The notes beneath the pieces were generated by a model that was not told where the DNA came from, made no database searches, and saw nothing but the letters and a program-made list of their open reading frames with translations. From Patescibacteria group bacterium (GTDB lineage: Bacteria > Patescibacteriota > Microgenomatia > Daviesbacterales > UBA10151), in assembly GCA_023379125.1 (NCBI GenBank), contig JAMCSY010000027.1, positions 1 to 36,895 on the forward strand: 36,895 bases of DNA, read 5' to 3'. The position numbers were made by a program, and so were the translations under genes. Every line of letters begins with the position of its first letter. Positions within the stretch are counted from its first letter, which is position 1. Below, in pieces: positions 29,812-36,732 of this stretch.

Positions 29812-30873
29812 TTAATCATGCCACTCTCTTAATCTGCTCAAAATTTCTGCTCCTTTCAGTTTGCGTAAGCTTTTGGCTTCAATCTGTCTAACTCTTTCTC
29901 TGGTGATCCCTAATTCCCGACCAGCTTCCTCCAAAGTCCATTTTTTCCCATCCTCAAAGCCAAACCTTTTTGCTATCACTATTCTTTCCCGCTCAGTGAG
30001 TGTCTTGGCTAAAATATCCTGAATTGCTTCTGCCAGCAGTTTTTGCTCAACTATACTGGTAACATCAGCACTTTTATCTTCCTGCATATCGCCCAAAGTT
30101 GAACCATCATCTTCCTCGCCAACACTACTCTCTAAGCTAGCAGGCAAGAGCAAAGCCAGACGCAACTGTTCAAGTTGTTCGACGGTAATCCCCATCGCAC
30201 CTGCCAATTCCAAAAACGTTGGTTCTCGACCATAATCCGAAAAAAATTGCCGGGTTGTATTAGTCATCCTCGATGCTAGTTCACTAACCCAAACAGGTAT
30301 TCTAACCACCCTACCATCGTCAGCAAGCGATCGGGTAATTGCTTGCCTGATCCACCAGGTTGCATAAGTTGCAAACTTAAAACCTCTCCTCCAGTCATAC
30401 TTCTCCACTGCCCGTTCCAAACCAATCGCACCTTCTTGAAATAAATCCAAAAAATCCACAAAACCACCCCTTTGATATTTACTGGCAATCTTAAAAACCA
30501 ACCTATAATTGGATTCCTTCATCATTTGACTTGCTTCCCTGGCTACTTTGATATCTTCTAATAGCCTGTCTTTTTCAGCACCGCTGACCCCATTTTGTTG
30601 AAGTCTCAAAGCTGCCTCTGACCCTTTTTCGATTTGTTGACCCAACTTAATTTCTTCATCATGAGTCAGTAGTGGTCTTTCTCCGCTCAACACTCTTAAG
30701 CTAATTACCAAAGCTCTAATTGGATCAGCAACTGCTGTATCCATGATATTACCTGCTAAAACCCTTGGATTACGGTAAAAACGCTCTGATAACTGACCTG
30801 GAGATTCTAGGCGAACCTTAGTTTCATCAGCCAAATCGACTGTTGTATCAGTAAATTCTTTTTGTTCTCTCAT
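29812..30873 (-). CDS. rpoD: Primary sigma-70 factor
   Basis: This 353-residue sigma factor recognises vegetative promoters. Region 1.2 is around residues 65-85. Region 2 is NYRLVFKIASKYQRGGFVDF to YATWWIRQAITR and carries the -10 recognition helix and melting aromatic residues. Region 3 follows from VRIPVWVSELA. Region 4 has TERERIVIAKRFG and the -35 recognition helix in LEEAGRELGITRERVRQIEA. The acidic region 1.1 seen in E. coli is short or absent. It has a promoter (30885-30914) with an expected 5-base leader. A diverged, split paralogue lies 62 bases upstream on the same strand. Confidence 0.95.
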   Translation of the reverse strand: MREQKEFTDTTVDLADETKVRLESPGQLSERFYRNPRVLAGNIMDTAVADPIRALVISLRVLSGERPLLTHDEEIKLGQQIEKGSEAALRLQQNGVSGAEKDRLLEDIKVAREASQMMKESNYRLVFKIASKYQRGGFVDFLDLFQEGAIGLERAVEKYDWRRGFKFATYATWWIRQAITRSLADDGRVVRIPVWVSELASRMTNTTRQFFSDYGREPTFLELAGAMGITVEQLEQLRLALLLPASLESSVGEEDDGSTLGDMQEDKSADVTSIVEQKLLAEAIQDILAKTLTERERIVIAKRFGFEDGKKWTLEEAGRELGITRERVRQIEAKSLRKLKGAEILSRLREWHD

Positions 30874-30884
30874 CGCAGAAGTGA

Positions 30885-30914
30885 ATCATAACATAGCAAG
30901 TTTTCTTTGGTAAA
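30885..30914 (-). promoter_or_regulatory. rpoD promoter with a very short leader
   Basis: On the minus strand, TTTACC (30914-30909), an 18-base spacer and TATGAT (30890-30885). The expected start near 30878 is about five bases from the ATG at 30873. No Shine-Dalgarno is present. Confidence 0.45.
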
Positions 30915-30934: not shown

Positions 30935-31612
30935 TTAGTCAGCAAACCCAGTCAGCACCTCTTTAACTTGATTAGTTCGTAAGCGCATCCTCGAAGTAAG
31001 GTCTAATTTAGCAACCCGAGCCTTACTTATTTTCAGCTTCTTTATAATTTCACTGCATGTATATCCTTGAAGGTACTTCAAAACAAAGACCTGCCTTTGT
31101 CGCTCTGTTAACTTTGCCAGCGCACTAGAAAACTCCATTAAAACAATCTTAGAAACTGCTTGCTCATCTGCGGGAGTGTTGGAATTAGGAATACAATCTA
31201 TCAGACGCAATTGACTTTCATCACTTAACGTTTGATATAAACTCAATGGCACTTGATGAGCAGCTAACAGACCAGCTACTTTAGCTTGAGGTATATCTAA
31301 AGCTATTGCTACTTCTGCCGAAGTGAGAAAATGTCCAGCATCATTATCGAGATTGTCAATTTCCCTGTATAAACGAGCTAGTTGCTGTTCTCGATAACGT
31401 TTCACTGAGACAACATGGTTGTTCCTGGCAATATAATCCCTTATTTCATATGCAACCCACCAGGTCGCGTAAGTTGAAAATTTCACTCCTCGTCTCCAAT
31501 CAAACCTGTGAACAGCCTTGATCAAACCTTCACTACCAGCTCCCACCAGATCTGCTTTCTCAATACCTCCCACTTCTGCCTGATTATGGACTGCTTTAAG
31601 AACCAGCCTCAT
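30935..31612 (-). CDS. Second sigma-70-like factor, C-terminal part (regions 2-4)
   Basis: These 225 residues, counted from the ATG at 31612, hold region 2 (MRLVLKAV, then ADLVGAGSEGLIKAVHRFDW and YATWWVAYEIRDYI), a region-3-like middle and region 4 with LTERQRQVFVLKYLQGYTCSEIIKKLKISKARVAKL. Region 2 is close to the neighbouring primary factor; the region 4 helix-turn-helix is strongly diverged, so -35 preference should differ. The frame continues upstream through IEAN and one TGA (31625-31627) into the region 1.2 segment at 31625-31921. With the stop ignored, a single 328-residue sigma factor results. Either the gene is broken by a point mutation, or this part is expressed alone, or the stop is read through. 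Confidence 0.75.
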   Translation of the reverse strand: MRLVLKAVHNQAEVGGIEKADLVGAGSEGLIKAVHRFDWRRGVKFSTYATWWVAYEIRDYIARNNHVVSVKRYREQQLARLYREIDNLDNDAGHFLTSAEVAIALDIPQAKVAGLLAAHQVPLSLYQTLSDESQLRLIDCIPNSNTPADEQAVSKIVLMEFSSALAKLTERQRQVFVLKYLQGYTCSEIIKKLKISKARVAKLDLTSRMRLRTNQVKEVLTGFAD

Positions 31613-31624
31613 GTTAGCTTCTAT

Positions 31625-31921
31625 TCAATCTTTTCTGGCCTGCAATCCTGCCTGAAAATCTGCTTCCAGTCGTACTCTTTCTTGATCAGTCAAATCTTGG
31701 TTTTTCAGGGCTTTCTTGGCAACTTCTCCTGATTCATACTGCTGAAACAACCGTACTTCTTCTTCAGCCCCTGACAATGGGGGATGAGCCAAATTCATTT
31801 CAATACTCCGGAAACTATCAAAGAGATCATATAAATCTATGCTCGATGATTCAGTGTCTTCTAACTGAAGTAGACACAGTCCTGCAAAGGGAGAATCTGT
31901 TAACTTGCTTTCCACCACCAT
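31625..31921 (-). CDS. Second sigma-70-like factor, N-terminal part (region 1.2), ending at an in-frame TGA
   Basis: These 98 residues start at the ATG at 31921 (a TTG at 31939 is an alternative). The last 50 residues, HPPLSGAEEEVRLFQQYESGE and on to LQARKD, correspond to sigma region 1.2, where the family continues directly into region 2. Instead, TGA follows KD, and the same frame resumes with IEANMRLV. The primary factor has a methionine at the equivalent position and other sigma factors usually leucine, so one base change (for example TTA to TGA) explains the stop. No other disruption is present. On its own this fragment should not bind promoters. Confidence 0.65.
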   Translation of the reverse strand: MVVESKLTDSPFAGLCLLQLEDTESSSIDLYDLFDSFRSIEMNLAHPPLSGAEEEVRLFQQYESGEVAKKALKNQDLTDQERVRLEADFQAGLQARKD

Positions 31922-33791: not shown

Positions 33792-36695
33792 TTAAACTTG
33801 TTGCAACTGCCGTAATAAATCATTGAGATCTTTCCACTCAGCTAAACCATGATTTTGCTCAACCAATTTTTCTGTTAAATCAACTATTGGTCCCGGATAT
33901 CCATAAATTCTTAGACCTTGTACTGATTTTTGACTAGCTTCTCTGCCTGGACCGTCTCGATCAAAAGCCAACCCCAACTCAACTCGCTGGTCTGAAACTT
34001 GGGCCGCGTGCTTTAAACCAGCCCAATTAGATGTCCCCACTAAGGCAACTGTCGGATAACCCATCTGTATGGCTGATAAAGCATCCAGTGGAGCCTCACA
34101 AATATTCACTCCTACTTTGGGATCAGCTTCTAAAATCTGCTCAAAACAAAGTCCATGTGTATACTCTCCCGATGATTTGACATGCGATAAAACCTGTTTA
34201 TTTTTGGCGTTAAAAGCCAGCCTACCATAAAAACTAACAACTGCATCTGGCCAAAAAGAGAGTGGAAAAGTTATATAACCCACACCTTCATTTTCAGCAA
34301 AATTTCCTGCACTAAAAGCAAAGACAGGCAAGCCGAACCCTTTACCCTTTTTTAAAGGTTGCTTTATCTCCTCATAAGTTAAGCCAAATTTTTTAAGGAA
34401 AGGTACCACTCCTTGCTCCTGATTTATCCTCTCGCTGAGTCTATAGAAACCTGTTTGCAGTAACTCATGATAAGTTTGCAAAGCTTCGTCATGGTCAGTT
34501 CTACCACCTGCTACTCTGTTAAAAATCTCATAAGCAAAACCGCGCTGAGATGCCAAACCAACCCCAAGTTGGGTAGCAAGTTCAACATCAATCGCCCGAC
34601 TTTGTAAATATTTATGGGCGACTTCCGCTCGATACCGATCAGATTCTGATCCCTGAGTAAGCCATCTTTCCTTAAGTAAATTCTGCGCGATCTGCATAAT
34701 TTCCAAATAACGCTCAGGAATTTCCTGACGATTGGGAATCTCCGCTTGGCTATGAGTCAGATAATTTCGCACCCTGCGCCCATCGATTTTAACCAGACCG
34801 TTGAGAGTCCGCTCATCAATCCTTCCCCCCGCTCCGCAGGAAAAACACTTCCAAGAACCTGTGTAAGGATTAACTAATAAGGAAGGATTGCGGTCAATTT
34901 GACCTGGATAATCAGGATTTTTAGGTTGGTGAGTTTTTAGAAAACAGCGCACCTTGAAAGCCCGATCACCATCTACAGATTCTCCTTCGACAGCACCTCC
35001 TCTGAGAGCCTGTACTAATCTCGTAAAATCCATCAAATACATAGGCGCACCACTCCTTTTTTTACCCAGCACGCTAATTATTCCTCCAGTTTTTTCTGAT
35101 TCACGATCTAGATACTCCTGCCTACTAGTGATCAACTCTTTAATTGCTTGATCATGAGAATTTAAGCCATCTGGATGATTATTGCCATTGTGATTACCAT
35201 TTTTGCGGCCGTCTATCATCACATAAGCTCGACGTTCATTTCCAAGTAAAGTAGCCAGCGCCAAACCAGTGAATAACTGATCAGTCACTCGTGCCTGTGC
35301 TCGACTGGTATATTGTAGATAGCGGCGGGCAAAACCATCTAGCCTACCTCTGACTTCTTGATCGGTTGGGGAAACCAACAAATGCTGTGGTGCTTCCCAG
35401 GAAGGTGCAACATAAACTAGTTGGGCACCGACGACTCGATCACTTAAAGGAGACTTTTCCGGATCTAGTTGGTCATGGACTAAATCTAAACCTAGTCTGC
35501 CCCAACCAATATAAGTACTTGCCTGCAATAAATGCCCTTTGGGAACCTCAGTTAAAGGTTTAACCGGATAGCGCTCGCTGGCCCAAGTTCTTAAGTTACC
35601 ATCAACAGTGCCCCCAACTAAGGTTTTAACCTCTTCGATCATCCACAACGGCCACCAGCCAAATTGGTGATGAATCTTCCAATCTGCTTCTACCAAGGAA
35701 CTAGGACGACTCGCGACCACCCGACACACTTCTGCCTGCTGTCTGCTTGTAAGTTGGCCATTATCTGTTCCAATCACCAAAGCACCATCAATTCTGCCTG
35801 TATTTATTAAGCGTGACTTAAAGGGAGGTGCTTCTGTCAACAAAACTTGTGGGCCTTTTTCTAAATATTGCCGATATCCAGAGGTTAAAATACCGCACCA
35901 AGTAGCTACTAAATCAGGCAAAAGTTCTTGAGCAGCATGGCGTGGCAGGCTTAGAAACTTTTCCAGTGATCTACCAACATAGGGATATAACAAAGGAACA
36001 GCTGCCAGTGACAAGCGACGCGCCTCCCAAACATCATTAGTTTCTAAAGCATGATTTAACTGACAATGATAATCTTGCAACTGTGCTGTCAAATCGAGGT
36101 CAAACGGACGAACGGAATGACCATTTTGCTTAAAAACAGGTAATAAATCATGATTGTTCCAACTACCAGGCACTGTTTCATCAGTAATATAGGAAAGCTG
36201 GGGGTTACCGAGTAAGAGGTTCTCAGTATTGGTATCAAATAGGCTTGATTGTAACTCGCATTCTATCTGTTGAGGTGTAAAAACTTCTCCAGTTAATGTC
36301 CCTAATAATATCTCATGGGTGACTGATCCACCCATAGCTACCTCCCAAAAAAACTCATCACTAGATTTACCTCCACGAATAATCCGTACTAACTGCGACC
36401 ACTGGGCAGTAGGTGGTTTATGAGTCACATCATAACGTGTTACCTTTGCTGAAAAACGCGGATTTTTGCCGACTAGCTCTTTGAGAAATTGTCCAAGTTT
36501 AGCTTCATCTTCAATCAGACCTGCACGCCTATATGCTTCAGCTAGGGCACGAAGATCAGCTCTTGGGGATAGATGAGTTGCCCAATTAATCAACTCTGTT
36601 GGCGGATCTTCAATGCTTGCTAAAACCTCAGCAACATCACTAGAATAAGATCCCATTTCTGGTAAATAATTCCTTTGAGCTTTTTTCTCAGCCAT
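33792..36695 (-). CDS. RecB-like nuclease fused to a DnaG-like primase core
   Basis: I use the ATG at 36695 (967 residues); a TTG 33 bases upstream is less likely. Residues 1-285 match nothing I know. A PD-(D/E)XK nuclease of RecB/Cas4 type fits 285-400: TEAPPF, GRIDGA with D303, EEVK with E355 and K357, and Q391 in LLQASTYIGW. A basic N/H/G-rich linker near 510 leads to a CHC2-like zinc finger (C584, H589, C617, C620; first pair unusually C-x4-H). A DnaG polymerase core follows (ITFPLSF, VVSFYGR, THGLCFEQIL), then TOPRIM with E867 and DRD at 912-914. There is no typical DnaB-binding tail. A replication or repair primase is likely; the canonical dnaG may lie elsewhere. Confidence 0.8.
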   Translation of the reverse strand: MAEKKAQRNYLPEMGSYSSDVAEVLASIEDPPTELINWATHLSPRADLRALAEAYRRAGLIEDEAKLGQFLKELVGKNPRFSAKVTRYDVTHKPPTAQWSQLVRIIRGGKSSDEFFWEVAMGGSVTHEILLGTLTGEVFTPQQIECELQSSLFDTNTENLLLGNPQLSYITDETVPGSWNNHDLLPVFKQNGHSVRPFDLDLTAQLQDYHCQLNHALETNDVWEARRLSLAAVPLLYPYVGRSLEKFLSLPRHAAQELLPDLVATWCGILTSGYRQYLEKGPQVLLTEAPPFKSRLINTGRIDGALVIGTDNGQLTSRQQAEVCRVVASRPSSLVEADWKIHHQFGWWPLWMIEEVKTLVGGTVDGNLRTWASERYPVKPLTEVPKGHLLQASTYIGWGRLGLDLVHDQLDPEKSPLSDRVVGAQLVYVAPSWEAPQHLLVSPTDQEVRGRLDGFARRYLQYTSRAQARVTDQLFTGLALATLLGNERRAYVMIDGRKNGNHNGNNHPDGLNSHDQAIKELITSRQEYLDRESEKTGGIISVLGKKRSGAPMYLMDFTRLVQALRGGAVEGESVDGDRAFKVRCFLKTHQPKNPDYPGQIDRNPSLLVNPYTGSWKCFSCGAGGRIDERTLNGLVKIDGRRVRNYLTHSQAEIPNRQEIPERYLEIMQIAQNLLKERWLTQGSESDRYRAEVAHKYLQSRAIDVELATQLGVGLASQRGFAYEIFNRVAGGRTDHDEALQTYHELLQTGFYRLSERINQEQGVVPFLKKFGLTYEEIKQPLKKGKGFGLPVFAFSAGNFAENEGVGYITFPLSFWPDAVVSFYGRLAFNAKNKQVLSHVKSSGEYTHGLCFEQILEADPKVGVNICEAPLDALSAIQMGYPTVALVGTSNWAGLKHAAQVSDQRVELGLAFDRDGPGREASQKSVQGLRIYGYPGPIVDLTEKLVEQNHGLAEWKDLNDLLRQLQQV

Positions 36696-36732
36696 GTTTT
36701 TAAAAATCTTGGGGCAGCTATGGGACAACTTT

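Follow-up and report, generated by a model that had tools for sequence, protein, structure and literature searches.

The 36,895-nucleotide stretch of DNA analyzed here (hereafter the window) comes from a member of the Patescibacteria and carries on its minus strand a sigma-70 gene that is interrupted by a single in-frame TGA codon, probably because a dispensable accessory sigma factor has recently acquired a nonsense mutation, which may still be polymorphic. Several options for this stop had been put forward in the initial annotation, and the recent nonsense mutation is the best supported among them: the stop is the only lesion in the frame, the genome encodes RF2, no suppressor tRNA was found among its typed tRNAs, the residues conserved in primary sigma factors are eroded, and no orthologue was found in the genomes of the class. 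The split gene documents how spare sigma factors come and go in bacteria with small genomes, in which many accessory sigma factors are not expected.

A sigma-70 frame with one internal stop

The minus-strand frame 31939-30935 comprises 335 codons with TAA as the terminal codon, and contains the following features.

31628..31921, minus strand: coding part of ORF a; N-terminal segment resembling region 1.2, with the linker preceding region 2.1, as judged by alignment to other sigma factors
31625..31627, minus strand: in-frame TGA stop at a position that is Leu or Met in the family; residue 105 of the read-through protein
30935..31612, minus strand: ORF b, starting at ATG 31612; 225 amino acids covering sigma-70 regions 2 to 4; region 1.2 and only a few residues at the start of region 2.1 are missing

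ORF a begins at either TTG 31939 or ATG 31921, both of which are in frame, and ends at the TGA, which is the sole internal stop of the frame; the ATG of ORF b follows 12 nt after it. The 328 codons of the split gene contain no frameshift and no damage besides the TGA, and both halves have the composition of normal coding DNA when GC content is assessed by codon position. The earlier description of two otherwise intact halves (31921-31625 and 31612-30935) in one frame with only a TGA between them is thus confirmed. No other gene interrupted in this manner was found within the window, since the products of same-frame neighbouring ORFs elsewhere in it identify these ORFs as distinct genes.

ORF b is recognized as a member of the sigma-70 family by curated Pfam models for region 2 (PF04542; 45.5 bits against a cut-off of 24, E-value 6.5e-12) and region 4 (PF04545; 38.8 bits against a cut-off of 24.1, E-value 6.5e-10; two region-4 models score above their cut-offs), while the match to region 3 (2.4e-5) falls slightly under the cut-off. 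ORF a by itself matches nothing in Pfam or NCBIfam; when it is aligned with 18 other sigma factors, it is collinear with them across region 1.2, the linker and the stop. A comparison of the read-through product with solved structures yields a match to SigA/HrdB over residues 49-333 that extends across the stop, and its E-value of 1.4e-28 places the continuity of the homology far beyond chance. In the column of the stop, 17 of the 18 aligned sigma factors have Leu or Met and one has Ile; the residue is Met in the neighbouring sigma factor and Leu in the genome's own RpoD.

When the read-through protein is modelled with AlphaFold (mean pLDDT 64.7; mostly 75-90 in the sigma-2 and sigma-4 blocks), the stop falls within an uninterrupted helix (residues 85-108); the next helix begins at residue 110, the ATG of ORF b. 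The notion that the halves serve as two subunits of a split sigma factor, as in the Bacillus SigO-RsoA pair, is hardly conceivable in light of this model. Both halves are indeed open frames with normal coding statistics, but the cut falls within a single helix, and ORF a by itself has neither a core-binding nor a DNA-binding domain. Moreover, SigO and RsoA carry regions 4 and 2 on different proteins, whereas regions 2, 3 and 4 all reside on ORF b of the gene studied here.

Translation of ORF b from ATG 31612, by re-initiation or internal initiation, would yield a sigma factor consisting of regions 2 to 4 and resembling those of group 3, which lack region 1.2. We regard a functional protein of this kind as unlikely, even though ORF b keeps nearly all of Pfam region 2 together with regions 3 and 4, and the modelled helix start coincides with its initiation codon. 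Nor does the absence of a Shine-Dalgarno sequence at ORF b count against it, since most genes here have none: such a sequence, at least four bases long and no more than 25 nt from the start, was found for five of the 19 long genes checked (window 790-33395), and 14 of the 19 had none. Two of the five Shine-Dalgarno-like stretches are at an unlikely spacing, and initiation independent of this element seems to be common in the window. On the other side, the ATG lies inside the conserved IEANMRLV motif, so that the first residues of region 2.1 would be lost; residues for core binding and promoter recognition are eroded in ORF b; and no promoter-like site was found directly ahead of either ORF.

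Accessory sigma factors in the genome and its family

The genome contains three sigma-70 genes, two of which are adjacent in the window. The initial annotation took the gene next to the split one for the primary sigma factor. This is incorrect, and the analysis corrects which gene encodes the primary sigma factor of the source genome: the true rpoD, encoding a typical RpoD of 363 residues, is located on another contig, where it adjoins dnaG (G000:C4; L035:5020-6111). In a phylogenetic tree, this rpoD groups inside the clade formed by the RpoD proteins of relatives, while both genes of the window fall outside of it on long branches. The neighbouring gene and a site ahead of it can be described as follows.

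29812..30873, minus strand: intact neighbouring accessory sigma factor; 353 amino acids, 41% identity to the genome's RpoD, outside the RpoD clade
30885..30914, minus strand: promoter-like site (TTTACC, 18 nt, TATGAT preceded by TG, an extended -10), just ahead of the neighbour's ATG

Both sigma genes of the window are accessory paralogues. The split gene shares with group 2 and other accessory sigma-70 proteins the regions 1.2 to 4, which align in order and are homologous to RpoD throughout, and a separate, true rpoD is present in the same genome. It differs from them in being interrupted by a TGA, in retaining only 51 of 154 conserved positions and in the replacement of its -10, extended -10 and -35 determinants. 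The split gene is 27% identical to RpoD and 26% identical to its neighbour. The two window genes come together in the tree (support 99/62), yet their branches are long, and their mutual identity is no higher than that of the split gene to RpoD; direct tandem duplication is therefore not supported. Since the neighbour has its own promoter-like site before its ATG, it may be transcribed on its own, independently of the split gene; the number of promoter-like sites in the region does not exceed that in shuffled sequences, which makes this a weak indication from sequence.

A search of 374 genomes of the class, among which the source genome is the sole member of its genus, gave no orthologue of the split gene, and hence none sharing the TGA. 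The best matches in these genomes show 29-32% identity and are mostly RpoD-like; searches of GTDB contigs, viral contigs and phages returned distant sigma factors or nothing, and across all searches the distant matches range from about 24 to 33% identity. A literature search found no paper on accessory sigma factors of this bacterial group.

Within the family, accessory sigma factors are scattered, with about 21 in 45 genomes when long matches other than RpoD are counted. One genome of 0.7 Mb has four accessory sigma-70 genes in tandem, three of them in immediate succession (G002:C2; L041:2639-7475). The family's accessory sigma factors, this array included, resemble the window pair in their tandem arrangement and strong divergence; compared with the arrayed copies, which have open frames, the split gene is stopped and more eroded. 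Several of them also share with the split gene the linker that precedes region 2.1, which is absent from the RpoD proteins of the family. The linker, of roughly 24 residues, was considered as a mark of an accessory clade and rejected, because the actinobacterial HrdB/SigA has it as well.

Two of the accessory sigma factors contain one internal stop, namely the split gene and a gene of a second genome (G008:C34; L046:4496-5971). The latter is open over about 490 codons except for a lone in-frame TAG at a KFD-stop-RRGF site of region 2, in a column where the other aligned sigma factors have W, Y, F, P or L. Since the genes, the stop codons and their positions all differ, random loss of dispensable genes would fit these data better than a shared device, with only two cases to judge from. 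It is very unlikely that the lineage keeps accessory sigma factors in a stop-interrupted state, with a re-initiated sigma factor of regions 2 to 4 or rare read-through as the product and termination setting its level; if the stop of the split gene were conserved and bypassed, it would represent an unusual instance in which translation termination controls an alternative sigma factor.

No internal nonsense codon was found in the RpoD proteins of the family in that search. The only RpoD found in one further genome ends early (G014:C7; L050:3321-4325), with EEVGK followed directly by YLE and a stop; region 4.2 appears to have lost about 31 codons in frame, possibly through an artefact of the assembly.

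Decoding of UGA

The genome encodes RF2 (431.6 bits against a cut-off of 370), and UGA should therefore terminate translation. Of 22 genes in the window whose ends were checked, rpsB, dut, the wzy/ligase-like gene and ORF a itself stop at TGA, and the earlier statement that TGA is not a general sense codon here thus stands. Recoding of UGA to Trp or Gly has been described in Patescibacteriota (PMC13092985), and the split gene resembles these cases in having UGA in frame in a bacterium with a small genome. It differs from them in that RF2 is present, normal genes end at TGA, and a tRNA with a UCA anticodon is lacking: a genome search gave 38 tRNA genes, and among those typed there was no suppressor with a UCA (TCA) anticodon. 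A UGA-recoded genetic code was thus rejected, as RF2 has been kept and no UGA-reading tRNA was found among those typed. A tRNA-Trp with a 4-bp anticodon stem is a described route to the reading of UGA (PMC13092985), and this route is ruled out by the complete, normal 5-bp anticodon stem of the genome's tRNA-Trp(CCA). Selenocysteine decoding was likewise rejected, since the sole match to tRNA-Sec above the cut-off is a tRNA-Ser with the anticodon TGA.

These findings bear on the proposal that programmed read-through of the UGA acts as a regulatory switch that provides the full-length sigma factor under some condition. In its favour, reading frame, coding statistics and predicted fold all continue past the stop, and bacterial genes with in-frame stops and dN/dS values below 1 have been reported (PMC7918605). 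Against it stand RF2 and the tRNA complement just described; in addition, the RNA around the stop contains no stimulatory fold, as it folds no better than shuffled sequences (z -0.65), and no orthologue with a conserved stop was found. We consider the switch a very remote prospect, and we infer that full-length protein is produced in small amounts at most.

Erosion of the gene and age of the stop

When 154 positions conserved in the RpoD proteins of relatives are compared, the split gene keeps 51, the lowest number among 20 accessory sigma factors (63-116 in the others). Conservation amounts to 6/14 positions in region 1.2, 27/51 in region 2, 9/40 in region 3 and 8/39 in region 4. Determinants for the -10, extended -10 and -35 elements are replaced in regions 2.4, 3.0 and 4.2, among them positions which we take to be equivalent to Q437 and T440 (-10), H455 and E458 (extended -10), and R584, E585 and R588 (-35) of the E. 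coli sigma-70 protein. The strong alteration of region 4 noted in the initial annotation is evident from these counts; the distinct promoter preference that was read into it is not, for regions 1.2, 2 and 3 are eroded too, and relaxed constraint would explain the altered region 4 at least as well as a new preference. Because both halves are eroded, no footprint of the stop itself is visible.

Of the single substitutions possible in the split gene, about 4.7% give rise to a stop. The one stop observed over 328 codons translates into about 0.02 neutral substitutions per site (upper limit 0.12), and a single stop without any frameshift limits the neutral change since the end of constraint to at most about 0.12 substitutions per site. 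Judged from sequence, any constraint-free period would thus be short in comparison with the near-saturated divergence of the gene from every known sigma factor, and the TGA is presumably young.

If the TGA were due to an error in the sequencing or the consensus, or to a minor strain variant picked during assembly, the gene would be intact in the organism. The lack of further damage in the frame and the 27-contig assembly are compatible with an error, to which we nevertheless give only a small chance: a lone substitution error that hits a stop is rare in a short-read consensus, the gene is unusually eroded, and a second accessory sigma factor of the family has the same type of lesion. The TGA is presumably present in the living genome.

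Under the preferred reading of a recent nonsense mutation, an accessory sigma-70 paralogue would have diverged strongly from all known sigma factors while its frame stayed open, and would then have been interrupted by one nonsense codon where the region 1.2 linker meets region 2.1. Termination by RF2 at the TGA would leave an N-terminal fragment of 98-104 residues without a DNA-binding domain. The outcome is probably a null or strongly reduced allele of recent origin, whether fixed or still segregating in the population sampled, in a gene class that appears to be gained and lost freely among relatives. The stop is premature, and the paralogues are open. Two findings count against this reading, namely the normal coding statistics of both halves and the fairly confident sigma-2 and sigma-4 helices of the model; together, they indicate a frame that was in good order until a short time ago.

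Stops within the frame of bacterial genes are widespread, and most of them do not persist for long (Belinky et al. 2021, PMC7918605), which makes a lone stop in an accessory gene an expected kind of event. Many of the genes with in-frame stops kept dN/dS values below 1 in the same study (PMC7918605), so that a stop alone is no proof of inactivity. The split gene resembles these cases in that its coding frame is normal apart from a single stop; the published cases are common to orthologues, whereas no orthologue of the split gene was found in the 374 genomes of the class.

As a minor observation on the remainder of the window, positions 33792-36728 encode a large protein of 978 amino acids that has a CHC2-like zinc motif of the kind typical for primases; the genome also possesses an ordinary dnaG, the gene beside rpoD on contig C4 (L035:6216-7994).
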